Shown piece after piece: positions 36,408-63,470 of a DNA stretch of 64,000 bases. This stretch comes from Polytrichum commune. Its lineage: Eukaryota > Streptophyta > Polytrichopsida > Polytrichales > Polytrichaceae. The notes under the pieces are model-generated. The model was given only the letters and a program-made list of their open reading frames with translations, had not been told where the DNA came from and did not search any database. The DNA lies in NCBI GenBank assembly GCA_950295325.1, contig OX485808.1, positions 16,884,527 to 16,948,526 on the forward strand. Reading direction: 5' to 3'. Each line of letters opens with the position of its first letter. Within the stretch, counting starts at the first letter, position 1. The position numbers were made by a program, and so were the translations under genes.

Positions 36408-39400
36408 ATGAAAGGACTACGGGGTACTTCGATGACTGGGTCAGGAAGAGTAGCTACGGATGTCGGATCCGAGGATAGATTTGAGATTCGAAGCATGGAT
36501 GGAACGAGTTCATGCCTCAGTATGGAGGGTCTTAGCTTAGACTTGATTGGTGACGGGGATATGAGTTGTAGTGTGACACATGGAGATGACGGAGCCAGCA
36601 GCTCAGATGGTTCCTCTCCCTTGGGCTGGCCTTTGGCGCGAAGGGATAGGTTGAGTTCAGCTCCTTCTCCTTCTTCATCAAATTTAACAAGCGTAAGCAA
36701 AAATTTTATGTGGGAAGAGAAAAGGGAGAAGCGGGAAACAGGACTCTCAGGTTGGCCATTTTACATTTTTTAACGTTTTCGTTCGTATTGCTAGTAGGAA
36801 AAGGGCCCTTCCGGGCGTGCTTCTGGTGAAGAAAAAAAGTCCACGTTGCAATAATATTTGCAAGTATGACATGTCTCATTGTCCTAACTTGTTTCGCTCC
36901 ATACTACTTTTCACAAGGATGAGCTAGGATTGTCAGTAATTGTAAGCGATGGCTCTTCATATCAATCATTTCTTTAAGATCTAAATCGTCAAATTTTTGT
37001 CAACCTACAGAAGTGGAGATGATGAAGGAAAGGTTTGCAAAGCTGCTGCTTGGAGAGGACATGTCTGGTGGTGGTAAAGGGGTGTGCACTGCGTTAGCTA
37101 TCTCTAATGCTATTACTAATCTTTCAGGTATAAAGCAAAGCTTCCTGCGGTCGAGTTGTGAATAATGAAAGTGCACGCAGTATTGATTATTTAGTCCTCT
37201 TCACTCCCATGGTGTGCCCTAGAAGGAAGTGATCATGGTTATGGACTGCTGAATTTGATTGGTTCCTTTTTATTGATGCTGCAGCGTCAGTGTTTGGGGA
37301 ATTATGGAGGTTAGAGCCACTCTCTGTGGAGCGGCGGACTATGTGGAGACGAGAGATGGAATGGCTTCTCTCTGTGAGTGATCATATTGTGGAGTTGGTA
37401 CCTTCTTGGCAAAGATATCCAGACGGTAGCACTTTGGAGGTGTGTACTATGGTCCTAGCTACTGTGCCCTGATTGTAGATCTTTTTGCAAATGGTTGATC
37501 CATTTCTGTAGAATTCAATAGCGCAGTCAACCTCGATTATTGTTCACTGGATGATCTTATTTAAAACGCTTTGATCCATTAGAATAGTTCCTTTCCAATG
37601 AAGCATGATGGGTATCTAATGGGAGGGGGGGGGGGGGGAGGGGGGGAGAGATATCAAAGTTGACATCTATTGCGAAGTATCATGAATTCAGTTGGCATGT
37701 ATTTATAATTTCTGTGCTCTTGTTTGAAAAGCCTCTTCTGGGCATATCATACAATTTTCTGGTTAATATCTAGTGAAAAATCTTGCAGTTTGTTGAGTTG
37801 TGCAATTTGGACGCAGGTTATGGTGAGCAGACCCCGATCAGATCTTAACATCAATTTGCCAGCTCTCCGAAAGCTGGACAGCATGCTCCTTGTAAGCCTC
37901 ATCTTCTTGTGTAGCTTTTGTTATCTTGGTATCCACCCTACCGAGGACTCCAGATATTTCCTAATTATCCTTTTTATACTATTATTACTTTCCGAAATTG
38001 CTGCTTGGGCATCGAGGTTGAATGTGGCAATGAGGATACACAGTTTCTCTCCTGCTAGGCATGATATTCAACCCGAAAGAACAGCAATTCCCCCTAGGAA
38101 TTTTTGTCCAGTTCCGAGTAGCTGGTCATGATTACGAACCCAGAAGACAAATATGAAAAGTTGGAAATGAGGACAAGCCATTAGCTGAATAAGTACTGCA
38201 GGGCCCTGTTCACAGAGTTCATTATTTTCTATAATCCATATTTTGTCCATGAAGTACTGGCTCTGTCTTGATGGTTCAGTTTGCAAAGAACAAATAAAGA
38301 GCTCATTGTCTATCTCCTTTCTCGTAGGTTTCTCTACGGATGCTGGTGAACAGAAGCGTGCATTTATTCTAGAACTTATCTTCACAGACACTTGATGCAC
38401 AGGAACTAGTCCTCCAGTGTGAAGAAGCACCTGCTTTCTCCACTGGGCTGACCTCTTTTGAACACGTGATTGTGGTTTTGCAGGACTCGTTAGAGAGTTA
38501 TCATGACACAGACTTTTGGTACGTGGACCGTGGTATTGCAGTAGCTGAGATAGACAGCAGAGGTGTGAGGCACTCCATGCAGCGACAAGAAGAGAAATGG
38601 TGGCTGCCAACCCCAAAAGTTCCTCCTAATGGTCTTTCTGAAAATTCAAAGAAACATCTTCATAACCAACGGGATGCCACAAGTCAAATTCTTAAAGCAG
38701 CCATGGCAATCAATGCTCAAACCTTGCTTGAAATGGAGGCCCCTAGCATGTATTTTGACTCTCTTCCAAAGGTATTACTTATATGAAATTTCTCGCTCAT
38801 TCGTCAACATAGTTGCTGGAAATGATGCTTCTGAAAAACAATTCCTCTTTCTATTACCTAGGGGGTTGGATATACATTATAGATGCCACTTGCATATCCA
38901 ACTAGATAGAAAGAAAATGATTCTTGACCTTCTAATTTTTTTGTAAAGTGACTCTACTGTCACATCCTTCATCGCTGTTGTACTCTTCCTATTCGTAGGT
39001 GCTAAGACTGAGCGATTAGTGTCCAGAAGATTCTCTTTCTGAGTGGTTGAAAATATTTTGTATGAAAGGTTCTCCTTCTAACAAGTGACTCCGTGCCCAA
39101 TAATATACCCGTCTACTCACTGTAGTGATTCCACAGGCTTTTCTTTATTTTCTAATGTTCTGAAGACTCCGCCATTTGTTTCTCTTCAACAAATAGTTTT
39201 GATTGTAGTTCTTAGGTGCTTTTAGGAGCGTCTTCCTTTTTTATCACAGCATCATACTCGGTGACTTACGTAGATTTTATTATATTCCGTGTTGCAGAAT
39301 GGCAGGGCATGTCTTGGGGATGCACTTTACCGAGCTATTGCCTCAGAACACTTCTCTCCAGACCGACTTGTTTCGGAACTGGACATTGCTGATGAACATA

Positions 39401-40456
39401 ATATACTAGAGCTAGCAAATCGGCTGGAATCTGCTGTACTTCTGTGGCGACGGAGAGGTCAAACAAAGACCACACAGGTGACCCCGAGAGAGAAATTCAA
39501 TGCCAAAAGTTCATGGGGGAAAATGAAAGATCTGGTGGGAGATATGGACAGGAGGGGATTGTTCGCGAATAGAGCAGAGAGTCTACTTGTGCGGCTAAAA
39601 CAGCTTGTCCCAGGGATGGCACAGACAATGTTGGACACAAACAAAATTCAGTTCAACAGGGTAGGTTTCTTTCTGGGCCCTGGAACCTTGATTTTGCAAA
39701 TATAGCTGAATTGTAGATGATAATTTGTGCAGCTGGTAATGTCTGCCTTTCAGTTTCTCTTCGATGCTAACACACAGTCCCCCATGTTCCTAGTTTCCTG
39801 TTAACTTATGACGATCACCTTAAGGCAGCGAGAACCATGCTGTCTGCCTTTCTCTAGCAAATGGGTGGCTGAAGTAGAGATTTCAATTATACTATCAAAG
39901 CTGCTATAAAATAGCTTCAAGTGGTGCAAGTGGTTCTAAGTTTCAGCTGGTGGCTGTGCAGGATGTGGGACAGTCAATTTTGGAGAGCTATTCTCGAGTG
40001 CTAGAGAGTTTAGCATTCAACATCATGGCACGCATCGATGATGTACTCTATGCTGATGATATGGTGAAGAAGACGTTGGCACCTCAAGTACCCTTGGGTC
40101 GTGAGCGTTCCATCTCAAAACGCATGTATTCCAGCCGGAAAAGGTCAAATGGGTCTATGCATTTCACCGCCCTGAGCACACCCTATGTGACACCGTTCAT
40201 CTCCCCTGATAATTCCCCATCTCCGAGTCCTCTAAGAACAACGCCCTGCTCTCCTCGGGAATATGCAAAGCCAGGACCCATTCTAGTCCCTTCCCTAGGT
40301 AGAGCTCTGTCAGACTACCTAGACTTAACAGAAGGGGATGCTGAGCAGGAACAAGAGGCACAACGGAAGTTCTCAGCAGAGGCTGCAAGGCCTTGGACTT
40401 ATGCGGGACACCTCGAGAACAGCAATGCTCTACACAGCCCACCAGGGCGCGACTAG
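36408..40456 (+). CDS. ROPGEF: RopGEF (PRONE-domain exchange factor), 7 coding exons
   Basis: RopGEFs load GTP onto ROP/RAC GTPases at the plasma membrane and steer polar growth, often downstream of receptor kinases. Exons: 36,408-36,750; 37,011-37,127; 37,285-37,439; 37,817-37,891; 38,484-38,771; 39,298-39,660; 39,962-40,456. Every intron is GT-AG and phases join without a shift, giving 611 residues, a normal family length. The N-terminal ~114 residues are Ser-rich and variable. PRONE spans about 115-485: [53 protein letters not shown], the WW loop [15 protein letters not shown] needed for nucleotide release, and [16 protein letters not shown]. The Ser/Pro-rich C tail ends in a conserved PWTYAGHLE...PGRD block, the regulatory tail of the family. 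Exon 5 as spliced lacks about three residues usual before DS-L/F. The start ATG is the first in frame; a longer N-terminus via an upstream exon is possible. Confidence 0.92.
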
Positions 40457-46577: not shown

Positions 46578-49414
46578 ATTTGTAAGGATTTACCACAAAT
46601 CTCCAGGAATAACTGGTTTGGTTGTTGGCGAGCCCATTACAGGACGTCGCCACTCCAGTCCAAGCATGAGGTTTTCTTGAGTCATAGTGGAGCGCAGAAG
46701 GACTTCGTACACCAACTTAGCCTGGACTTAGAACGAGAGGGCTACTTCCCTTACTTCGATAAATTGTCCGATTGTCTACCCAAGGGAGAGAGATATCCAA
46801 ATCTCATTTTCGAAGCGGCTGAGCAATGCAGTATGGCAGTGGTTGTCTTGTCACCAGAATACATGACTGCAAAATGGCCTATGATGGAGTTAAACGCATT
46901 CTATATGGCTCAATCTTCGACGAGACCGGAGTTAATACAATTTCCGGTCTTCTACAAGTTGCAGCCTGGGGACTTGAGTGATAAGAGCAAATTAGATGCA
47001 TGGGAGGAGGAATGGAAGAAGCATGAGAAAGAAGATACGTCTGGCAGGATTGATATAGAATCATGGAGGAAGGCTGTTCGGTACCTCCGTGGTATAAATG
47101 GTTTAAGATTTTCAGATTTTGGGAATTCTGAGGTATCGTATAGAGAAAGACTTGTGGAAGAGATTTATGGCAAACTAAAACCATGCTTGGGATATGATCT
47201 TTCACGTATTCAAGGGTGCAATCGGCTTTGTGAGGTATGTAACGCATGCACATGACTTGAGGAAGCAATTTATATGTTTCTTTTAGTTGCATGATGTTTC
47301 CTTCTGCTTTGAAGTTTCAGAGGCGAAGCGATGCTTGGGTATATTTCTCATTATACAGATTGGCGATATTGGTGATATAGGACGGTGAATCAAGCAGATC
47401 AATGTGCATTTACATTGAAGGACTCCGTTGCATAATGAGTAAACATGAAGATGTTGTATCGATTCGTGCATGATTGTGCGTGAGATGTTAAAACTTCTGG
47501 TATTACTGATTTCTGGAAGACTTATTCCTTCTGTATCCATCACTATGGCAGATTGTCGAGGGAATGTTTGAGGCTACTACCAATGGTAATGCACAAGGTG
47601 TGCAAATGCTGGGATTATATGGCATGTGCGGTGTGGGAAAGACAACGATGTGTAAAGCCCTTTGCAATCACTTTCAAAACCGATTTCAAGGAAGGGTGTG
47701 CCATGTGGAGCTTGGACCACGTGAGAAGTATCTGGACTTGCAAAAGAAGGTCCTGAAGAATCTCACAAATTTAGAGGATCAGGCATTGCAGGACATTACG
47801 GATTCAAATCAGGTAGGTTGCCAGATTTTGCGGTGGCAAATTTGTAGAAGAAAATTGAAAATATATCTGGGAGTCGTAATGCCAGGTTGCTACGGCCAAC
47901 CAGCCACATACCGGTTCAAGTTCTCCTGCAAGCGGCACTTCCTCCCTGTGATTCACATGGTCAAATGGACGAATAATCAATCAGTTAATTACTTGCTAAG
48001 TGTGCAATTCTATTAACCTTGTTTTTTTGAAATGCTATTAAAAATTGTTACGAATAGATGAGTAAGAAGTTAAATTTGTTCACGGGACGCAGTATAGAGG
48101 TTACATTATGGTGAAGATGGGGTTGAATGGACAGCATGGAATCTAGTGCGGAGGTTACATAAAGAACAAAGGGTTTTGAATAGTAGACTAATTGACCAAA
48201 TTTCTGTAGACCTAAGTGAAGTGGTACTACCATTAGTGAGGTGTAGGGAATTTGGAACACCACTTGGCAGCGTGTAAGAGACGGCATTGAGAAAGGGGAT
48301 AGTTATACGCTAACCCTTGACTCCAGGTGATGGTTACATTATGGAGGCATCTACAATGATATGAGATTTAATGGAAGTCCAACAATATGGTGGTGGAATA
48401 GGCCACCAAAGTTGTGGTGCTAGGAAAGATCCCCCAAGGGTGTGCGGCAGTTTGGCCGTGGGTAATTTGTGAATTTGTCAGCCGGACTCAGTTGAGAGTT
48501 GGGTCCTGCCAATTTAGTTAATTTTCTCTGGGATAGGAACCATGAAAGGAATGCAGCTAGTAGTTGGGACTACTTGTGCCAAGTGTTTAGAGCTCTAACA
48601 CGATGAACACATGATGGGGCACAATTCCACTTGAAGGCAGTCTGTGGTTGAAGCTGGTTGTGTATGACAAATCAGGGGAGTTTCATTCTTGAATTTGAAC
48701 TCATACTAGACAAATATGTTATCATGTACATAACATGTTATTATCAAACATATATGTACCTTTAAGAAAAGTTTGTTGCATCACGGAAGCCTCCAAGAGT
48801 AAATCCTAGTTTGGGGTGTGGTTTGCTCCGAATCTAATAGGTACTCCTGGATATGGGACAATAACGAACCAAGTCTTGGTTGTTCGTTATTACAGGCCCA
48901 GTTGCAGATGAAGAGACGGATGGGAGGACAAGATGTGTTCTTAGCTGTGGATAACGTGGAGAATGCTGAACATTCTCAAGAACAAGCGCGAGATTTGCTC
49001 AAAAGCACCTTCAGTGCGGGAAGCAAGCTGCTGGTCACAGGTAGAAGCTCTTCAACTGTGAGGGATGTGCTTCGACAGGATGAGAAAAAATTCTGTAAGC
49101 CTTTTCCAAACGTGAATGCTACTGAAGCTTTATCAATATTTCTGGACAAAGCAGCCCCTGGAAGGTCCATTGCATCACTTTCAGCAGAGGAGATATCTGT
49201 TGTGGTGGAATGCGTGAAGGAGGCGTGCTTTTTAGGAAAGTATCATCCGTCCGCCCTAAGAGCGTTGGGTTCTGATTACAATAAGGTGGATGCTCGAAAT
49301 CCCTTGCGTTGGCAGAGTCACCTGAATGACATCCATAAGCTTCGACCATGTGGAGAATCTGAATCTGGAACTATCTTTCAGATACTTGGGTTGGGGTTTG
49401 ACAAGGACTTGTGA
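46578..49414 (+). CDS. Truncated TIR-NB-ARC immune receptor (no LRR)
   Basis: TIR-NB-ARC-LRR proteins are intracellular immune receptors; their TIR domain cleaves NAD+ once the NB-ARC switch is activated. Exons: TIR exon ending 47,234 (open from 46,578; KHEVFLSHSGAQKDF starts at 46,662), 47,552-47,812, and 48,896-49,414; introns are GT-AG and all phase 0. The TIR keeps the catalytic Glu in KWPMMELNAF (46,887-46,889). The P-loop is GMCGVGKTT (47,621-47,647), kinase-2 is FLAVDNV with the usual second Asp replaced by Asn, RNBS-B is GSKLLVTGRS, and a GLPL-like HPSALRALG follows. The frame then stops a few codons after IFQILGLGFDK, within the ARC2 region: no MHD motif and no LRR. The stop lies in the large duplicated segment that starts at 49,406, so the 3' end of the gene has been replaced. 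No start ATG lies in the TIR exon; an upstream exon (acceptor candidate TTACAG at 46,642) is needed. It may act as a TN-type protein or be dead. Confidence 0.85.
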
Positions 49415-52587: not shown

Positions 52588-54442
52588 CGAGGAGAAGTCT
52601 ATGGGAGGCGAACCAGGGTTCTGACCTCTCGAGAGGCCACGTCGCCAATTCGAAACCTTGAAAACATCGTAAATCTACCAATCCTAGTATCTTTGTATTG
52701 CCGTCATTTTTTGTCTTCCCTGTTTGTTGCTTCGCCTACGGCTCCCTCTTCGGAATCGTTTCTTTCCTTCGCTCCGCATGACTCATCGGAATCTTGTTTC
52801 GTTGTTGTGTTTCGTTTTTCATCAAGGTTTGCAAAATCGAGCGACCCTACTTCGGCTGCCACATTTGCAATTTCCCCTACCTAGATTTTTGCAGTGTTTT
52901 GAGCTCTTGAAGGTCTACATGTGAGACCTGTCTCCATTTATATACAATGGATTTCATGTTGCTAATTATCTTCTTGCACATATACTGCAGGTGCCACTAG
53001 GATTGGCGATACAGTAGTGTGGACTTATGCATTCTTACTTACAGAGACCAAAGATTATACTTATAAGAACTGTGACATCAACTTGCGCAATAACTCTACA
53101 ACTATATTAACACCATCATGTCAGAAACATATGACAAGGATGATGAGTCGCCGAACAGATACTTCTAATGCCGTAGAGTCTGCAGCTTGGTTGTGGGTTC
53201 CTTATCCATTTCAATGTGGGGTCCCTACTTTTCATTGGCATACTGTAGTGATTATGATTGTGACATCAATTATCGCCACAGTAGATTCGGTACAGTTCTC
53301 TTATTCTGCCATTCTTGGAGTCTGATGCCTTTCTCTGTATTGGTAACAAACTTAGGTTTGGGATATGATGTTGGTTTTGAAATCACTCCAGGGAAGAAGA
53401 GGAAAACAAGTTTCAGAGGCCTTAATGTGTAGCTTTAATGTTTAACCATATGTCACTCAGGAGGAAAGCCTAATTAATTGTGCAAACATTATCTGATAAT
53501 GAGCGGTATCTTTCAAATTCAATTGATGCTATAGGTCTCGGCTTCTTTAGCTTTCTTATGTATGGTGTGCAGAATGTCCAATACGAAAACATCGAAGCCA
53601 CACTACCAGCTTGGAAAGCCAAGACATTGCTTAAGACGGTCGTCTCTGGAGATTTGGCGCCACACCAAATGTTCTGTTTTTACAATGAATTTGGATCACC
53701 GACATCACAACATAGTCCGATCTGTTCGAAGATCGCGCAGAATTTATATTGCGTGCAATGAAGGAATAAAACATGCAGATGCATATCGATACAGTGGCCC
53801 CTATTCCCCCAACTGCAAATTCAATCTTTAGTGTGGGGTCCGATAATGCGCCGGTTCTAGTTCCTACATGAACTTTTCATCACAAAAATGGGAAGCGCGG
53901 TCCTTGATCGTCTACACTATAACCTATATGTACACCTCGTTTATCACGTCTATAATTTTGTATTTATGACTCATCGTTACATTGGATATAATTTTTAATA
54001 CTCACTACATTGCATAATTCATGTTAGGGACAATGGACGAGTGTTCGTAACCAAACGATATGGCCACACATGTGACTACATCAATACGCATGGTCCCCAT
54101 CTCTCAAGATGAGGGGCGACGCTAGACTATACGTTTTATTTACACAACATTTCCATATCGATGTTGTGTATATGACTACTTGAAAATATCTAGCTCTTAG
54201 GAAGGAGAAACAACTAATACGTATGTACCAATCGGAGTCCTTGCGAACACTCAAATTGCCATAACTCCTAGCTCACATATCTAGTTGAGGTGTTCTTGAG
54301 CTTTATGAAATCACCACGCCATAAGCTACGCATAGCTCATGGCCCTACCCTCGTGCATCCTAGTCTCCGTGGGTGGGATGCGATCCGAACGCCCGGGGCC
54401 CTTGCCCACACTAGGATCACTTGGGCCCTCTTACCAACGTCG
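52588..54442. other. Intergenic, no gene recognised
   Basis: Frames of 66-151 codons at 52.4-53.8 kb show no known domain. A GTGACATCAA phrase occurs twice (53,071 and 53,260). The stretch lies between the duplication and the retrotransposon's 3' end. I could not find the missing LRR region of the immune-receptor gene here. Confidence 0.45.
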
Positions 54443-54548
54443 TGTCGTGTAAATAGCGATCGTGTGTCACTGCAGCTCGAGTACCAACCACCACTAACAA
54501 ACAACACTAAAACATATCCAAGTCACACATAAACAACACACCTCGACA
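54443..54548 (-). repeat. Second partial LTR start (106-bp direct repeat)
   Basis: These 106 bp repeat 54,885-54,990 with two mismatches. On the minus strand both open TGTCGAGGTGTGTTG. The spacing is 442 bp, so on the element strand a full-length LTR-like unit is followed by the first 106 bp of another. This looks like a broken tandem LTR. Confidence 0.75.
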
Positions 54549-54990
54549 GAGAAGGAAGAGAGTAGAACACTCGTAATAGCTCTAAATCTCTCTTCAAATG
54601 CACACAATTAGTCAAGCTATCTCTCACTCCACCAAGGGAGAATCCAAGAGTGTAAGTAGAGGGAGAAGAACTCAAGATTTATTGCAAAATCATGCAATCT
54701 ACACCTCACACAAGCTCTCTCCACACACTAACTCACAAGACTTGACTTGGCAAGAATGCCAAGCCAAGGAGGAGGCTCCTCACTTAGGAGCCTTCCTCTC
54801 CACATCTAGATTCATCCATCCAAATCTAGATGGATGAAATCCAACGGATAAGGTGCGGCCGTCGACGCCGCATACCGTGACAGCTGTCGTGTAAATAGCG
54901 ATCGTGTGTCACTGCAGCTCGAGTACCAACCACCACTAACAAATAACACTAAAACATAGCCAAGTCACACATAAACAACACACCTCGACA
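54549..54990 (-). mobile_element. 3' LTR of the gypsy element (442 bp, likely)
   Basis: On the minus strand it begins with TG immediately after a purine tract, as a 3' LTR should. It contains GCAATAAATC (54,675-54,684), a plausible polyadenylation signal, and pairs of CATCTAGATTTGGATG and AAGGCTCCTAAGTGAGGAG that could fold. A classical CA end could not be assigned. No matching 5' LTR is visible before the window ends at 64,000. Confidence 0.6.
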
Positions 54991-55003
54991 TGCCCCCCCT
55001 CAG
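54991..55003 (-). promoter_or_regulatory. Polypurine tract of the retrotransposon
   Basis: On the minus strand GCTGAGGGGGGGCA sits directly before the TGTCGAGG LTR start. Such a purine tract primes plus-strand DNA synthesis in LTR retrotransposons. Its place between the polyprotein end (55,275) and the LTR fits. Confidence 0.7.
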
Positions 55004-55274: not shown

Positions 55275-55454
55275 TCATTGAGTACGATTGGTGGAAGCAC
55301 CAAGTACTGAAGATCCTCGACAGCGAGGACAACTCCACTATCCAGATGGTAGAGAAGCCAAGGGTGGCCTCAAGCATGCCATGTGTCAACCGCGTTGACA
55401 CTGATCACACAAGAGCATAGTAGCCGCTCCTTTCTTCTCTCCACACACAAAACA
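55275..55454 (-). pseudogene. PHD zinc finger at the integrase C-terminus
   Basis: Downstream of the integrase the frame reads CFVC (first Cys codon 55,454-55,452), LLCDQC, a stop, HMAC, a stop, then WSCPRC (last Cys codon 55,322-55,320). The spacing is C-x2-C-x11-C-x2-C-x4-H-x2-C-x14-C-x2-C, the C4HC3 signature of a PHD finger, with the characteristic Trp two residues before the seventh ligand. All eight metal ligands remain; only two stops (55,386 and 55,338) break it. PHD fingers bind histone H3 tails, so this may have guided integration to marked chromatin, the role played by chromodomains in chromoviruses. The protein ends at the TGA at 55,275. Confidence 0.8.
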
Positions 55455-56620
55455 TGGAAGACCCTCTGGCACGACAGCCAGTTCAGGATGAACTGTACCC
55501 TCAATAGGTAGATAACATGGGGCACAGTTTTTGGAATACTCGCGACATTCCCTGCCATCATTGCCTTCCAACAACAACAAAGCACTCGGCAACACCTCCT
55601 TCACCCGAAGGATAGTGCGCCCCGCCCTGACATCCAATATCGTAGGCGCCTCACGTTGAAGATAAACATAATCCCCTTGCCAAAATCTCCGCAACTGAGG
55701 TCGGTAAGCACCACTGCGAATACGTGCATAACGCAATGTGTCACGGTGCTGAGCAATGGACAAATTCTCCATGGCCATAGGCATGGCTCTCTGGAAGAAT
55801 TGAGCCCGCTCCTGCAAACACTTTGCCCAAATGTTTGGGTCATCCAAGTCCACAACAGGAGCTAATTTTTCCCGAATAAAACTTGGGAGAGTAGGCTCAC
55901 GTCTATACAATAACTGATACGGGCTGTAGGATATAAAAGAGGTCTGCCTACTAAATCGATAGCCCATAGCAATCCAAGGCAACATAAGGTCCCAATCTCG
56001 GTGGCTTCCCCGAAGTAATCCATACTTCCTCAAGCCACGCTTGGTTGTTTGAACAACCCGTTCAGCCAAGCCATCTGCCTCCGGATAATCCCGAGAGGTG
56101 GTACGGTGATCTATGAGCGCCTTAGTGCACAACTCTTCAAAAGCACTAAGGAACTAGCTCCCTTCCTTGGTCTGTCAACACCTCAGCCGGTGCTCCAAAA
56201 CGTGCTAACACACGATCCAAAAAGGCGGCCGCGGCCAACTCTGCAGAGTTTTGGGATAGAGCAACAAGCTCAATCCACTTGCTAAAATGCTCCACCATCA
56301 CCAAAACGTACTTTGCTCCACGTGGTGTAACCACCAACGGCCCTGCAAAGTCCAGCGACCAACGGTAGCCCAATCCCATGATAGGTAAGGGCTGTAACTC
56401 TGAGGTGATAAGGTGTTAAAGCTAGACTTGACCCGGTGACAAACTTCACACCTCCTGACATAGGCAGCCACCTGCTGATACATGCCAGTCCACCAATATT
56501 GGCCACGCAACATCGAATGTGTCCTGCGTATGCCAAAATGGCTAAGTTCCTCGTGCACTTGTCGCACTAAGGAGGCTCTCTGATCCGGCCTAGGAACAAT
56601 ACGCCTTGTCCCATCCGGCC
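55455..56620 (-). pseudogene. Ty3/gypsy integrase, frameshifted
   Basis: Integrase joins the reverse-transcribed DNA to the host chromosome. The N-terminal HHCC zinc site is seen as HEELSH...RRTHSML...CEVC (His codon 56,555; Cys pair near 56,450-56,439). The catalytic core has Asp in RWSLDFAGPL, Asp in VLTDQGRE and Glu in ADGLAERVVQ, i.e. DDE retained. The frame changes near 56,390 (before MGLGYRWSLD) and near 56,140 (after GRELVP). The C-terminal part has the usual Y-R-P-Q-L and GDYVYLQ segments and leads without a gap into the PHD finger. There is no chromodomain. Confidence 0.85.
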
Positions 56621-56899: not shown

Positions 56900-58427
56900 C
56901 CCCGGTCAAGTCCTCATCTGAAGGACTTGGATTGCGTGAGAGTCCATCTGCATCCATGTTGGTAATCCCAGCACGGTGTACCACCTCAAAGTCATACTCC
57001 TGGAGCAACAAAGCCCACATGGCAAGCCTGCCAGTAAACTTATCCGACTTCATGAGCCACCGTAACGGCTGATGGTCAGTCACTAAAGTAAAGTGCTGAC
57101 CATAAAGATACGGCCGAAAATGAGCAATAGCTCATACCGCCGCCAATGCTTCTCCCTCGTAGGATGAATAATTAGCCTCCGCCGTGTTATTGCTTCGCGA
57201 AGCGTAAGCAACAACATACTCCCGGCCAAAATCATCCTTCTGAGTGAGAACTGCTCCCAAACCCAATGAACTCCAATCCGTATGCAACTGGAAAGATTTG
57301 GAGACATCTGGACGTCGAAGCACTAGAGCCGTACCCAATTTCTGCTTCAATGTCTCAAACGCCTGTTGTTGCTCACGACCCCAAATCCACGGTTGGTCCT
57401 TGCTCGTAAGAATGGTGAGAGGCTTGGCGATCAAGCTAAAGTTCTTGACGAATCGCCGATAGTAATTCGCCAAGCCCAAGAAAGCACGAAGTCTCGGCAC
57501 ATCAACCGGTGCCGGAATCTTCTGCAAGGCGTCCACCTTAGCTTGTTGTACACCAAGACCTCATGGAACAATCATATGTCCCAGATATGCCAGCCGGTCA
57601 TGGAAAAACTTGCACTTGCCGTGGTGCAAGAGCAATCCCCATCGCTGCAACCGTTCAAAAACGGCCTGCAGATGCCTCACATGCTCCTGTGGTGTTGTGC
57701 TGATGATTATCACATCGTCTATGTAACACCGAGCAAAGGGTAAGCCAGAGAGAACCTGATCCATCACCCGCTGAAACTCAGCGGGTGCATTCTTCAAGCC
57801 AAATGGAAGAAACTTCCAATGATAAAGTTGATCTTTCCCATCTTGATCAACTCCCCAGAATGCGGTTTTCACTCGATCTCCCGCAAGTAATGGGAGTTGG
57901 TGATAGCCGAATCTCAAGTTTAGGGTACTAAAGACTCGAGAAAATCCGATGGCATCGAACAACTCCTCGGGGATTGGCATGGGATACCGATCCGACTTGG
58001 TCTTCCGATTACCTGGACGGTAATCCCCGCACATCCTCTTCTCCGTCCAATTGCCAAAGATTTCATTCTTCGATGGCATCACCGTAGCACAAGCATACTC
58101 TTCGTTGGAAAGTTCGATTAGTTTTGTTGCCAAGAGCTCTCGACAACGGGCCTGAACGCCAATCCGCTCGGAAACACTGAGTCTATAAGGTCTCCGAAAA
58201 ATGGGATGGTCGTCCTCCAACTGAATGTGGATGGGTTTTCCTTTATAACCTTCAAGATCCTGAAGGCTAAAAGCAAAACACTTACGGTACGAGCGAATAA
58301 ATGCTCGTACTTTCTGTGCCTCAGCACCAGTGAGATGAGGGCCCAATTCCAATGGCCAATCATCAAACTCTGTGGTCTCCCTTTCCACTAGAAGAGAGCC
58401 ACCTGGTGCTGGCACGGACTCTAACTG
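56900..58427 (-). pseudogene. Reverse transcriptase and RNase H
   Basis: RT copies the element RNA into DNA and RNase H removes the template. RT text in order: PIHIQLEDDHPIFRRPYRL, RMCGDYRPGN, FSTLNLRFGYHQ, FLPFGLKNAPAEFQ, YIDDVIII (57,725 down), LAYLGHMIVP. Motif A normally has Asp in L-D-L-R but has Asn here (codon 57,920-57,918), which should abolish catalysis; the YIDD Asp pair is intact. A TGA (57,561) splits RT from its thumb (LRAFLGLANYYRRFV). RNase H follows with FQLHTDWSSLGLGAVL and VTDHQPLRWLM, split by a second TGA at 57,132 where the family has Trp. Confidence 0.9.
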
Positions 58428-58739
58428 CTAATGAAAGGAGGGGACATTAACCATGCCCCCAAACTCCGTGCTAGCAATAGAGTCCATCCCCTCTTCATCA
58501 CCACCAATATGTGATGATGAAGCCACCACCGGAGGTGAAGAAACCAAAGCAATATAAACTCGTTGAGCTCGGAGCTCCTCCATTACCTGCTGCTCGAATC
58601 GAAAAATTCGTTCGGCTCCTTCAACCCTGACATCAATTCCCTCCTCCATGGATGTGGACCGTTGTGCCCCCTGACCAGAATCCTCTGCCCCCAGAGACAA
58701 TAATTGGTCACCATGATGCCATTGCAATGCAAGGCATAA

Positions 58740-59700
58740 ACTAACAGTCCACACCATGGTATGGAGATCCATGGCTTGGCCCAATACGAAGCTTCGTTGG
58801 CCCTCAGAAAGGCCAGGAGCTGCGGTGGTACCAGTGCGGAAGCCCATGGCACGCTCTTGTTCATCAGCCAAGGGATCGGTGTGGGTTTTGGTTTTAGCAT
58901 CCCACACCATACCCGGCTCCTGATCGCGGAAGGCGAATGATTGTGGAAACGTCATAAAGGTGGGAAATGCCCTCCGTGGTGCCCCCACTTTGTTGACCAA
59001 TGCCAACGGGGGTAAATCATCTCGACCAACCGGCAAAGAGGTCCGGTTTGGATCCAAGATGTCATCCATCTTCTGATCCAAAGGTGGAGGCACTGCAGAA
59101 AATGCTGCAGCTAAAGTAGATGACGGTGCGAGGTTGGTCCAAATCCACCGAGGCCGGTGGACATAAGAACCAATGCTCGCGGCATTTACAAAAATGGAAT
59201 CTCCAAGGTGTTGACGAACATAATGATCGCCTTCCAACACCTTATCCCGAGAGTCTCCCAACAATGGAACATTCTCGAAGATATACCCTGGAGGGGTACG
59301 TTGGTGGGAAAACCACCACTACATGAGGCGGATGAGGTCCCAAAATAGACTAGACCTGGGATCCTCTAGACCTCGGCCGGCTCCAGCACGTGAATGGCCC
59401 TGGCATGGCCATCCCGCAATTACCATATCCACCGAACCCAAGTGTCGTAAGTCGGCATCACTAATGAGTGTGACATCACGAGGGAGACGTGAAAAACACC
59501 CACGAATGGCAGTTGGAGGTAATTGGTGGGGGTATAATACCATCAATTGGTGAAAATGGTGACGAGCCACACGGGTGGACATTTGAGAGTTGTCCACATA
59601 GACATACCGTCTAACTGTGAGGCCAGCCTCTAATACGGCTGCTAAGCCCGTGCCGATGCCCCCAAACAGTTCGACCAAAGTAATCCCCGCGTCTGGCGGC
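58740..59700 (-). pseudogene. C5-cytosine DNA methyltransferase domain in the retrotransposon
   Basis: The family transfers a methyl group from S-adenosylmethionine to carbon 5 of cytosine. Between protease and RT the frame shows, in canonical order, motif I VELFGGIGTG (AdoMet binding, 59,669-59,646), motif IV GWPCQGHS with the catalytic Cys (codon 59,405-59,403), motif VI ENVP (59,276-59,265), motif VIII YVHRPRWIW, a target-recognition stretch, motif IX-like EQERAMGF and motif X SFVLGQAMDL (ending near 58,758). Order I to X rules out the permuted DRM layout; the short ENV and RPRWIW blocks recall DNMT3-like or bacterial-type enzymes, and which subfamily is not decided here. One TAG (59,319) interrupts between motifs IV and VI. 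The domain is in the same frame as RT, so it was part of the polyprotein. Confidence 0.88.
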
Positions 59701-60059
59701 TGCCATAAAATGGGATGTGCCAATGCTGAGAGGGCATCCGGTATGACCGGTGTCCGAGGAGTGAGAGAGTGAACAATATCCTCACACCTCCGGAATAGTT
59801 CGGCGGAATTACGCCAAGGAGGAAGGGGATCCTTGGGATGGCGCATGAATGCATACTTAGGTGTCATATCCCGTGGATCGTCTGTATTCCCCATGAATGC
59901 CAATGACTCTTCCAACAATGCGGAACCATAAGGCAATGTGTCCACAATAGCACCACATCCAAAAACCATGGATAATGGTGCTATGGTCGCGGCCGCCGCG
60001 AAAGCCACAGGAATAAGTTCCCTGCGGCCATCCCCAGCCGACCAACCTGGTCGGATCCA

Positions 60060-60440
60060 TGCCCCCTCTGTCCAGTTGTCCAAACCAAAACCAAAAGGGT
60101 AAAGTGCTTGGTGACCAACTAAAATGTCATAGTTGGTCGCATCCGTCACCGCACACCTAAGAAGAAGAGGTGCGGGTGATATTGTGATATTGTGCGGAGT
60201 GAGAAAGTGAACAATATCCTTACACCTCCGGGTGGATCTTCAGGCTTCACTCGGAAGCTAAGTTGTAATGGCTCCCGAGTATAACCCGTGGCCCGCTCCA
60301 CGTGACCAATGGATGTGACAATGGTGAATGGACAGGGAGCCAAATCCTCGGCCGCCAACCCCAACTCTTGGGCAAGCCTCTTGCCGATCATAACTGGTTG
60401 TGCCCCTGAATCCATCATCACACAACGGGGAGCAACCCGA
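60060..60440 (-). pseudogene. Retroviral-type aspartic protease, split by an insertion
   Basis: The protease cuts the polyprotein into its working parts. The active-site triad is DSG in CVMMDSGAQPVMIG (60,412-60,404), followed by the flap region ending RVKPEDPP. The usual last strand, TDATNYDILVGHQ, appears from 60,149 down in another frame. About 85 bp of extra DNA between them cause the shift. That insert includes a 36-bp near-copy of 59,757-59,793. Confidence 0.8.
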
Positions 60441-61132
60441 GTAGCATTGCTCCCAGTGCGACTGACCACCAAAATGCCGGTATCATTCACCATACGCACA
60501 ACGCCGGGTCGAATGCCGCGGTGCTCGCGGGCAGGTCTAGCAACGACATCAGACAGATAAGCTGCTCCCGCGGATACTGGTGAATCATAAGACGTGGTCG
60601 GTGCCTTGTCATCTAAGGTGTGTGCGTCAAAAGACGCAATGGTCTCTGCCGCAAGTCTCGCTCGCCGTTTGGTCACCTCCTCATGATCTTCAGAAGCAGG
60701 GATGTCCGTAGTAGCTTGAGCCACGGTCTGAGAAGGTAAGGATGCCTTCCCTTCCAAAATCCTACCTGCTAAGTGAAAAACCTTAGCAGGTTGGAACTCT
60801 GGCGACGACCACTCCATTGCCGTGAACAAAGGTGTGTGCAACACCTTGGATGCCAATGTGTACGCCATGTCGGTCGCTGAATGTGAAACCTCATTGTTCG
60901 GATGACGACCACTGACAGATTGGACGGCATCGGCCAATCCAAAAGATAATGGTAGTCATGCCTGACCAATTTGGTCCGCGGGCGTATTGTCCCGAGCTCG
61001 CGAGCTTGCCACATACTCATTTGTGGTCGAAGGTATGGCTTGTGACACGGCTTAAATACGTGTCACGGCTGCGGAACTCACCACCTCGCCCGAGGCTCCG
61101 AACATATAGTAATCCGACGTGGAAGAACTAGC

Positions 61133-62566
61133 CTAAGCTCTGGAGGAAGACGGTGAGGCCAAAATTTGGCCGGATGACGTTAAGCTTTTGAACCTCTCCT
61201 CCATGGCTCCAATCTTCGCCTCCAACGTCTTCTCCCGGTCAGAAGGATGTTTCTCAGGATGGAGAGCAAAGCAGTTCTCGACCACGTGATTGTTCCGCCC
61301 ACAATGAGAATACTTCAACTGCTTGGGTAACTGATTATCCGTTGTCCCCTTCGCCGAGCCCTTAGCGGGAACAAATGGTTTCCGCTTCGGAATAGTGACG
61401 GTTTGGGCTTGCCTTTGCTTCGAAGGACAGTCCTTCTTAGCGTGGTCGGCCTGCCCACAAGACCAACAATACATGGTCTTGTCTACCTCAGCCTCCGCCA
61501 ATCCCGCAGCCGCAACCGGAACTCTTTGGGATTTGCTAGAATCTACTAGCAGGGACACCAAATCAGTGGCATCATGCTGACACAATGCACGATCACACTG
61601 CTCGACAATGGCGAAAGCCTCTGCAAGTGTCGCCCGACCACCATAATCCATGATGATCCTGGGCAGCACTAAGTCAATGAGGCGTTTGTCAATCTTGGAC
61701 AAAAATACCTTCACCAACTGGCTCTCTGCGAAAATACCTCCAAATTCTCTTGCAAACCTCGCCAACCTCGTGTACATGGTACGAGGTGTGTCCTCTTTCT
61801 CCCGTCGAAAATCCTGGATCCGCTGCATTTGATCTCGGCGGAAACCTCCATATTCCTCCTCCAAATGGAGTTGGAATTCATGCAGAGGATCAAATTCAAG
61901 CGGAGCCCCTAAAGAGGCTAATGCTGCCTGGGTAGCCTGGGCATACCGAGAGAGTGGAAGACTCGGACTCGACATACTCGCAGATGCGGATGTGGGAGCC
62001 TGATCTTTAGGCCCACTGGGAAAACTCCCCTCCACATCCACTACAACGACGCCCTCGGCTTGCTCTGGCTTCACCACAGAAGCGGCCAATAAAGTAGAAG
62101 ATGCGCCTTCCTTTAATGCGGAAACAAGCTCCACCCGAGTCTCCCAGTATCGCTCCACCTAGCGCAACACCATCCAATAAGCATCCCTCCATTGCTCATA
62201 AGTCTGGAGCGCCTCATGCTCCAAATGTGGAGGTAGTAACTCAAACGCATACCAGTCATTGAAACTGGTATTGCGTTGACGCTTCTCCCTCATCCATGTC
62301 CTGAACCGAATTTTCCAATCTTGCAGGGAAATGGTCCCTGCTCGACCGGAAAATCGGTGACGGATGCCGCCTCGCGTTTCCTCCTCCATCTCGTCAAAGG
62401 ATCCCACCCAAATGACGTGAGACCGAGTAGCAATCTCCCACGCCGAAATAGGCTGAAAAGCCTCGTCGGGTGCTACCACAGGTTCACTGTCCAAAAGGTC
62501 CGAAGATCGACCTTACGATGATGCCGGAGACGGAGAACGATAATGTTGGCTCCGAGTTGTAACCAT
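61133..62566 (-). pseudogene. Gag capsid/nucleocapsid
   Basis: Gag packages element RNA. The frame starts at ATG 62,566 (MVTTRSQHYRSPSPAS), meets TAA at 62,513 and TAG at 62,159, and then stays open to 61,133. The capsid-like helical region includes LHEFQLHLEEEYGGFRRDQ and LVKVFLSKIDKRLIDLVLP. A CCHC zinc knuckle, CWSCGQADHAKKDC, lies at 61,468-61,427. A second knuckle at 61,312-61,271 has Tyr in place of the first Cys (YSHCGRNNHVVENC). From 61,132 to 60,440 the same frame continues through three more stops into the protease, so gag and pol were one frame. Confidence 0.85.
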
Positions 62567-63470
62567 AAACCCGCAATGGATTTGGTCATTGGAGCCAACA
62601 ACCTAAACTAATGTGGTATTAGGGTAAAGGCAACCTGTACCTACAACCACCACCAAATTTTATGGTCTGCTGGTCATCAATCCAGCCTCACCATAAGGGA
62701 ATACAAACACTGCCCACTTGGTGCACACACAAGGGTCTCGTCGATCATTACTCCGACCTCACCCCCACAATACCCTATCACAAACTAGGACAACACAAAA
62801 TGGGGCAATGTTGGAAGACTCCAACACAACAACCCGCAACGGGGGAAGGTACCACAACAAAATACAATGAACAATGCAATAACCGCACTGGATCCTCTTC
62901 TCCAAAATAACACTTAAACAAAAATTGAAAGCGACCATGACCAACCGGCACCCGCCTACGGTTGGTGGTAAAAAAAGAAGAGCCCCTGTTGCTTAAGAAA
63001 AGAAATTGTATAAGCACATCGCTCATCTAATCTACAACATAAAATCCTCTCCTCTCTGAAGTCCCTGGAATCTGTGTTTCTCAACACAATTCGCTCTTAA
63101 CAATTATCTTGTTAAGTCGAATGGGGATTCTATGTGCCAATTTGCTTTACCCCTAGGCAATTCCTCAACAATCTATTAAACCTATCCCCAAAAAATCCCA
63201 ACACAATCCCTCAAAAGAAATCCCAAGTATTTTTAATATTTCATAAGAGCTTAGGTTTTCTTCTTTGTGTCCTTGATTAATGAGCCCAAGAAATTAACCT
63301 CTTAGAGAGAAGAGAAAAAAATAGAAGTTGAAAGGAAACATAAACTAATTACTTAATTAATTTAATTAAAATTAAATAATTAAAATAAAATATCCGGTTT
63401 TAATTGTTAAATTAAATTAAATTAAATTAAGTCCGATTTTAATTCATTAACGTATTGATTAATTAAAACA
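62567..63470 (-). other. Retrotransposon leader region, 5' LTR not identified
   Basis: Directly upstream of gag on the minus strand. I could not identify a primer binding site or a match to the 54,549-54,990 LTR. AT-rich TTAATTAA-type DNA begins near 63,340. Confidence 0.4.

Follow-up and report, generated by a model that had tools for sequence, protein, structure and literature searches.

The window, i.e. the whole stretch of 64,000 nucleotides of Polytrichum commune DNA under study, carries at its right end a retroelement of 9.98 kb on the minus strand, with Gag, protease (PR) and a C5-cytosine methyltransferase (MTase) in a first open reading frame (ORF1) and reverse transcriptase (RT), RNase H, integrase (IN) and a PHD finger in a second one (ORF2). 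The element extends from position 54443 past the right end of the window, and its 5' repeat (A1) lies outside. On the plus strand, the window contains RopGEF exons (PRONE; three pieces at 37.7-40.5 kb, 37709-40453, with E-values down to 1e-37) and a TIR domain with the start of an NB-ARC domain (46.6-48.0 kb, 46578-48013), as in a resistance gene of the TIR-NB-ARC type. Both neighbours had been named in the sequence-only reading, an earlier interpretation of this DNA made without database searches, and both were recovered.

All features of the element are located on the minus strand. The Gag region at the start of ORF1 (61412-62569) matches Gag of a host-genome copy with 58% identity (tblastn, E=1.8e-141) and is broken by a stop in the window. 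The zinc-knuckle (CCHC) region of Gag (61241-61480) was detected by tblastn and with PF00098 at E=0.007, below Pfam's cut-off. The aspartic protease (60006-60496) was found in two tblastn pieces, between which the frame breaks (between 60167 and 60248), and with PF13650 at E=0.0023, also below the cut-off. A 36-bp direct repeat, 94% identical, is present at 59758-59793 and 60196-60231; its second copy lies at the protease frame break. The DNMT3-like MTase domain (58722-59726) forms the C-terminal end of ORF1. It matches PF00145 with E=3.4e-10 (1.2e-12 with its single internal stop written as X), has DRM and DNMT3A matches in PDB, and is 61% identical (tblastn) to the MTase of a host-genome copy of subfamily A, described below. 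The five C5-MTase motifs quoted in the sequence-only reading were all located, in canonical order: FGGIGTG (59646-59666), GWPCQ (59400-59414), ENVP (59265-59276), RPRW (59145-59156) and LGQAMDL (58764-58784). A premature TAG (59319-59321), with no CARYYA after it, lies between the PCQ and ENVP motifs.

The boundary between ORF1 and ORF2 is a TAG (58428-58430) followed by CAGTTA; these nine nucleotides (58422-58430) have the form of the type I leaky-stop motif UAG-CARYYA, and the MTase and RT frames are equal. ORF2 contains RT (57528-58247; PF00078, E=6.2e-26), with a TGA at 57561-57563, and RNase H (56988-57392; PF17919, PF17917), with a TGA at 57132-57134. Integrase follows at 55542-56597 with its H2C2 zinc-binding part (PF17921, E=7.3e-19), its rve core (PF00665, E=3.8e-12) and the region after it. 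The PHD finger at the integrase C-terminus (55308-55466) is 79% identical (tblastn) to its counterpart, matches PF00628 with E=0.059 in the window piece and contains two stops. A tract of seven G (54993-54999), PPT-like, lies just 5' of repeat B1 (54885-54990), and 5-7 G are found at the equal place in six four-repeat copies. Repeat A2 (54549-54883), 99.7% identical to A1 outside the window, and repeat B2 (54443-54548), the 3' end of the element (...CA), complete the unit. The flank CGAC (54439-54442) is the 3' side of a degenerate 4-bp target-site duplication, of which the 5' side, CGCC, lies outside the window; three of the four letters are alike.

With Gag and its zinc knuckle upstream of the MTase and RT-RNase H-integrase downstream, the capsid and integrase genes lie on either side as had been read, and the domain order confirms a gypsy-type element with a cytosine MTase of its own. 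The further claim that the MTase is situated between protease and RT and in frame with RT stands as to position and shared frame, but the TAG at 58428-58430 splits the ORFs, here and in 22 of 22 copies. The anatomy of the element can be regarded as solid.

The window copy is dead: it has a TAG in the MTase, two TGA in RT and RNase H and a frame break in the protease. Its changes were scored over 8231 columns against the state common to at least four of the five other subfamily copies, which gave 206 C-to-T or G-to-A changes versus 65 reverse transitions, and 111 transversions. The C-to-T rate is highest at CHG (0.077), followed by CG (0.045) and CHH (0.043). This excess is as expected if the window copy had been methylated and had then decayed, and methylation would thus have given it no protection.

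The host genome was searched over 407.8 Mb in 64 contigs. The genome-wide PF00145 search proposed in the sequence-only reading gave at least 123 places (123 of 352 candidates scored), and a search with the C-terminal half of the MTase at least 147 (147 of 507 candidates scored); together they gave at least 214 different places, spread over seven contigs 42-78 Mb in size. These include at least one host DRM gene (L094, C2:4702100-4706100), which consists of two or more open pieces and whose motifs are in rearranged order; with the PRONE exons and the TIR and NB-ARC domains of the window, it marks the host as a plant. At 21 of the 147 scored places the match is free of stops and lies in an open frame of 1356-1386 aa. 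Two MTase places, C3:7302612-7303382 (-) and C3:7318780-7319550 (+), lie 16 kb apart on opposite strands; their scores, the lengths of their frames and their stop patterns are the same, which would fit an inverted duplication.

Twenty places were taken with their flanks. They were compared together with the window copy and with L001, a 9285-bp contig filed under a cyanobacterial MAG that is almost wholly retroelement and whose ends overlap inside Gag. L001, like P0004, a protein of an Obscuribacterales MAG by name, is probably plant DNA binned with bacteria, and it was probably assembled as a circle or across repeats. In these 22 rows, Gag, MTase, RT, RNase H and IN are all found 22 times, protease 21 times and PHD 20 times; the 20 places had the best PF00145 scores, so that the MTase is present in all of them by selection. 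Stops or breaks occur somewhere in most rows. Two subfamilies were distinguished, A (ORF1 1386 aa, ORF2 1047 aa) and B (ORF1 1366 aa, ORF2 1048 aa), and the window copy belongs to B. MTase-bearing elements are therefore an amplified family in a land plant, of which the window copy is one decayed member. The idea that one dead element had recently received a host gene by a single insertion was rejected on the at least 214 places (one or more being host DRM), the intact frames and the relatives in land plants and algae; recent capture of a host gene is also opposed by purifying selection on the MTase and by the different, rearranged motif order of the host DRM.

The element does not end in ordinary LTRs. 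Far-apart direct repeats were found by self-comparison in just 4 of 21 stretches and proved to be parts of split repeats. Repeat A at the 5' end measures 334 bp in subfamily B and 435 bp in A, and the 3' end has the order B (106-107 bp), A, B, the integrated unit being A1-coding-B1-A2-B2. All four repeats are present in 6 of 21 host-genome copies including the window copy, and the 3' B-A-B in eight more; the remaining seven run past the fetched stretch, are altered, or show just one B and no A2 (L080, L077, L068). In the six four-repeat copies A1 and A2 are 94.4 to 100% identical. Outside A1 (TG...) and the last B (...CA), exact 4-bp duplications were found in five of the six four-repeat copies and in L080, which is A-coding-B, i.e. 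in six of seven copies, the seventh being the window copy with three of four letters. The sequence of the B1/A2 joint is the palindrome GACA-GC-TGTC. This repeat structure suggests that circular DNA may be opened by the integrase at the B/A palindrome, a circle with one B-A joint giving A-coding-B and a two-copy circle giving A-coding-B-A-B; loss of A2-B2 by recombination between B1 and B2 would equally yield A-coding-B. PR, RT, RNase H and DDE integrase are found in gypsy order (protease below Pfam's cut-off), and the ends are A1 and B1-A2-B2 rather than identical LTRs; the element was therefore named gypsy-type with split repeats, an assignment that rests on domain order. In one open copy, Pfam detected no tyrosine recombinase domain in either ORF; rve was present. 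By these features and its 4-bp duplications the element differs from DIRS elements, which carry a tyrosine recombinase and are not known to make target duplications.

Relatives of the MTase were collected in three overlapping searches, which gave at least 102, at least 37 and at least 105 proteins, mostly metagenomic. The named hosts among the matches listed are Marchantia polymorpha, Sphagnum fallax, Closterium (two strains) and the Chlorophyta Haematococcus lacustris and Monoraphidium neglectum; among these named hosts there is no vascular plant, most rows carrying no name. With its host-genome copies and its Marchantia and Sphagnum relatives, the lineage is established in land plants, as the sequence-only reading had suggested. 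That the window MTase came from bacteria or viruses was rejected: viral contigs gave 52 loci with 25-58% identity over parts of the domain, and six of seven genome contigs matched with 31-50% over parts, L001 (65%) being the sole close one. A plasmid search gave one match, a Wolbachia plasmid with 32% identity to the RNase H/integrase part.

Two layouts occur among the relatives. The first, PR-MT-RT-RH-IN(-PHD), includes the named land plants. The second, algal layout, RT-RH-MT-IN-PHD, accounts for 61 of 125 proteins, and its named plant hosts are chlorophytes. In the algal-layout elements (P0135 and most of P0143-P0224) the MTase is thus located between RNase H and integrase. In an RT tree the two layouts separate cleanly (99). 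A careful MTase tree was calculated from 39 rows chosen from 128, with DNMT3A and two DRMs as outside enzymes, none of them a green-plant host DNMT3. The MTase phylogeny, which had also been proposed in the sequence-only reading, groups the element MTases together against DNMT3A and the two DRMs (100/99), a separation whose scope is set by those outside enzymes. The algal layout forms one clade (100/99), which the best tree places within the other elements; the PR-MT-RT layout is not one clade there, its monophyly not being rejected (p-AU 0.47). In a quick tree with phage outgroups the PR-MT-RT layout is one side of a branch with support 69.

The two positions of the MTase and the clean separation of the layouts in the RT tree could also mean that DNMT3 genes were captured from the hosts separately by PR-MT-RT and by RH-MT-IN elements, and independent acquisitions have been argued between dinoflagellates and charophytes (PMC5890265). 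Given the thin outgroup of the MTase tree, several captures from related hosts may be considered. The element MTases nevertheless fall on one side versus DNMT3A and the two DRMs, with the algal layout nested in the best tree, and independent captures appear rather unlikely, though they are the strongest of the alternatives. Among 13 rows of the land-plant-type group RT and MTase distances are correlated (r=0.937; none of 2000 permutations as high), among 26 of the 69 algal-layout rows hardly at all (r=0.118; 456 of 2000 permutations). The latter value speaks against strict co-inheritance of MTase and RT in that group, where a domain exchange between elements is possible.

The family profile of 20 members matches, in PDB, DNMT3A (8e-21), DRM (2.9e-9), M.HhaI (2.6e-8) and DNMT2 (3.6e-5). 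The window MTase alone has tobacco DRM (2.8e-9, in two pieces with swapped order) slightly above DNMT3A (5e-8). Plant DRM and animal DNMT3A are the closest solved enzymes, but DRM has a rearranged motif order, as does the host DRM, and the element MTase the canonical one. On this order and on its best profile match, DNMT3A, the element MTase is classified as DNMT3-type, with catalysis predicted. A Pfam search up to E=0.1 found no PWWP, ADD or UBA domain in ORF1 or ORF2 of a single open copy. Alignment A1, whose 20 rows are mostly close to full length, shows no variation at Q120, E162 and G197, and at least 90% of its rows agree at P118, C119, N163, R202 and R204.

Median dN/dS values were calculated leaving out pairs too short or with uncomputable (saturated) dS. 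Between subfamilies A and B they amount to 0.134 for the MTase (75 of 88 pairs), 0.106 for Gag (27), 0.115 for protease (18), 0.037 for RT (55), 0.042 for IN (83) and 0.120 for PHD (70). At near-saturated synonymous sites, these values indicate that the MTase is under purifying selection between A and B. RT and IN have A-B values three to four times lower. Within subfamily A the MTase value is 0.564 (55 pairs), the highest of all domains, followed by PHD (0.497), protease (0.494), RNase H (0.368), RT (0.323), IN (0.294) and Gag (0.268). The MTase is thus less constrained, and the young subfamily A copies are, judged from these ratios, mostly decaying, with the MTase as their least constrained domain.

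Such relaxed values would also be seen if the MTase had been caught once and survived fused to Gag-PR as a passenger without a role in DNA methylation, perhaps as a structural or nucleic-acid-binding piece of Gag; activity of a gypsy-type MTase is unproven in the published work (PMC5890265). The catalytic-motif positions, however, are kept in alignment A1, and the A-B ratio of the MTase is far below 1 and near that of protease, and this explanation is considered unlikely, more so than independent captures.

ORF1 and ORF2 share the frame and are separated by one TAG in 22 of 22 rows (20 copies, window and L001), and the hexamer after this TAG is CAATCA, CAATTA or CAGTTA, all CARYYA, in every row. 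Conservation of the TAG assigns the MTase to the Gag-side ORF1 and not to Pol. CARYYA follows none of the 76 premature in-frame stops in the domains of the 21 host-genome copies (window included), used as control, and its codon-aligned background in two copies is 6 of 2432 and 7 of 2413 positions. The median dS separating subfamily A, subfamily B and L001 is about 1.5 to 3; at this near-saturated synonymous distance UAG-CARYYA has been kept and is not merely recent inheritance. UAG-CARYYA is the type I readthrough signal of tobamoviruses (PMC5382211, PMC4132726). The likeness consists of the nine-nucleotide consensus at a boundary before the polymerase. Unlike in tobamoviruses, the motif here belongs to a retroelement and separates the Gag-PR-MTase ORF from RT, with readthrough predicted from its sequence. 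The boundary UAG is probably a leaky stop.

Relatives were compared as proteins, in which the stop codon itself is not visible. Gag-PR-MT proteins make up 23 of 125 relatives (P0105-P0229). Past the MTase match, the 15 close relatives P0105-P0119 continue for another 39-122 aa and then end; the five Marchantia proteins P0121, P0122, P0123, P0127 and P0129 likewise end shortly after the MTase. Contrary to this, in four Marchantia proteins (P0125, P0126, P0132, P0133) and one from Sphagnum (P0141) the chain continues beyond the MTase into parts of RT, RNase H or IN, through either splicing in the gene models or the lack of a stop there. Some metagenomic relatives (P0130, P0131, P0134) have a single ORF from protease to integrase, and the stop may therefore be a later addition. 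If splicing accounts for the five joined proteins, the UAG could be a plain stop, with ORF2 expressed from spliced or internally started RNA; this is improbable, since all 22 copies, which represent three lineages with nearly saturated synonymous divergence, keep the shared frame, exactly one stop and CARYYA.

DNMT-bearing retrotransposons have been described in dinoflagellates and in Klebsormidium nitens (PMC5890265), and these streptophyte and dinoflagellate elements are taken up again in PMC12344493. KnitGypsy-Dnmt3 of K. nitens (PMC5890265) is the closest described relative, in agreement with the link to Klebsormidium drawn in the sequence-only reading; the likeness is by published description and not by sequence, no K. 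nitens protein by name being among the matches listed in the three relative searches. In both elements a gypsy-type coding region encloses a DNMT3-type domain without introns or motif rearrangement, the repeats are arranged A-coding-B-A-B as in DIRS (legends of Fig. 4 and Fig. 1e of that paper), and the MTase is under purifying selection. The MTase of KnitGypsy-Dnmt3 is reported inside the Pol ORF, whereas that of the moss element ends ORF1 before UAG-CARYYA. Neither PHD nor readthrough, target site, Marchantia or moss is mentioned in the main text of PMC5890265. SymbioDIRS-Dnmt3 of dinoflagellates (PMC5890265) likewise has a DNMT3-type domain, split repeats and two domain orders, but it has a tyrosine recombinase where the moss element has a DDE (rve) integrase and 4-bp target duplications. 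According to the same paper, CG methylation was seen in yeast with DNMT3-type domains from DIRS elements of dinoflagellates, none was seen there with the Klebsormidium domain, a negative result that its authors call inconclusive, and the K. nitens methylome looked plant-like. The Marchantia methylome paper (PMC5784723) lists five DNA methyltransferases and, in the passages concerned, no element-borne one.

A published statement holds such transposons to be absent from land plants, with vascular plants as the example. For bryophytes, it is contradicted by the Marchantia, Sphagnum and host-genome copies. Among the matches listed in the open literature, none described DNMT-bearing retrotransposons from a moss or a liverwort, subscription papers and preprints being mostly outside this search. 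DNMT-bearing retroelements as such are thus known; what appears to be new is their occurrence in land plants, the Gag-side MTase behind a leaky-type stop, the PHD integrase and the target duplications at split repeats.

The integrase ends in the PHD finger, which matches PF00628 with E=2.4e-10 in an open host-genome copy. Its best PDB matches are CHD4, PHF12, DPF2, PHF21A, KMT2 proteins, ATXR5, KDM5 and UHRF1. Several of these PHD fingers read histone H3 unmethylated at K4. Histone binding by the PHD finger of the element may be inferred from this likeness.

Taken jointly, the data are explained best by a DNMT3-type MTase long held in a gypsy-type family, combined with its production at Gag dose, methylation of the element's own cDNA and steering by the PHD finger, a reading favoured somewhat beyond an even chance. 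Most ribosomes would stop at the UAG and yield Gag-PR-MTase, and a few would read through, adding RT-IN-PHD. With the MTase on the Gag side of the leaky-type stop, it would be made at Gag dose, and RT and integrase at a few percent, so that each particle would contain many copies of the MTase and few of RT. The MTase would then methylate the double-stranded cDNA (or circle) of the element before integration. The integrase would open circular DNA at the B/A joint GACA-GC-TGTC, and the PHD finger, most like readers of H3 unmethylated at K4, would steer it to unmarked chromatin. A new copy would arrive already methylated in quiet chromatin, with less damage to the host, hidden incoming DNA, or both. 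That the MTase is instead directed at host DNA or competitors, silencing rival elements or reshaping the host methylome, would agree with the many copies, with a Gag-side MTase that could be abundant and with what is discussed for Symbiodinium (PMC5890265), but is improbable in view of the plant-like methylome of K. nitens (PMC5890265).

Own-cDNA methylation with PHD steering can be extended, tentatively and with less confidence than the joint explanation itself, to a green-plant-wide lineage older than land plants. Its members would be reader-writers with a Gag-dose DNMT3 and a PHD finger and would insert pre-silenced from a circle; bryophytes would have kept the lineage, and vascular plants may have lost it. 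DNA methylation is a main weapon of plants against transposons, and here a transposon family carries this weapon, under selection and in many copies. A leaky stop would set the MTase at Gag dose, whereby its role in the particle becomes a concrete idea. With Marchantia, a tractable model plant, the question why a transposon would methylate DNA becomes testable.
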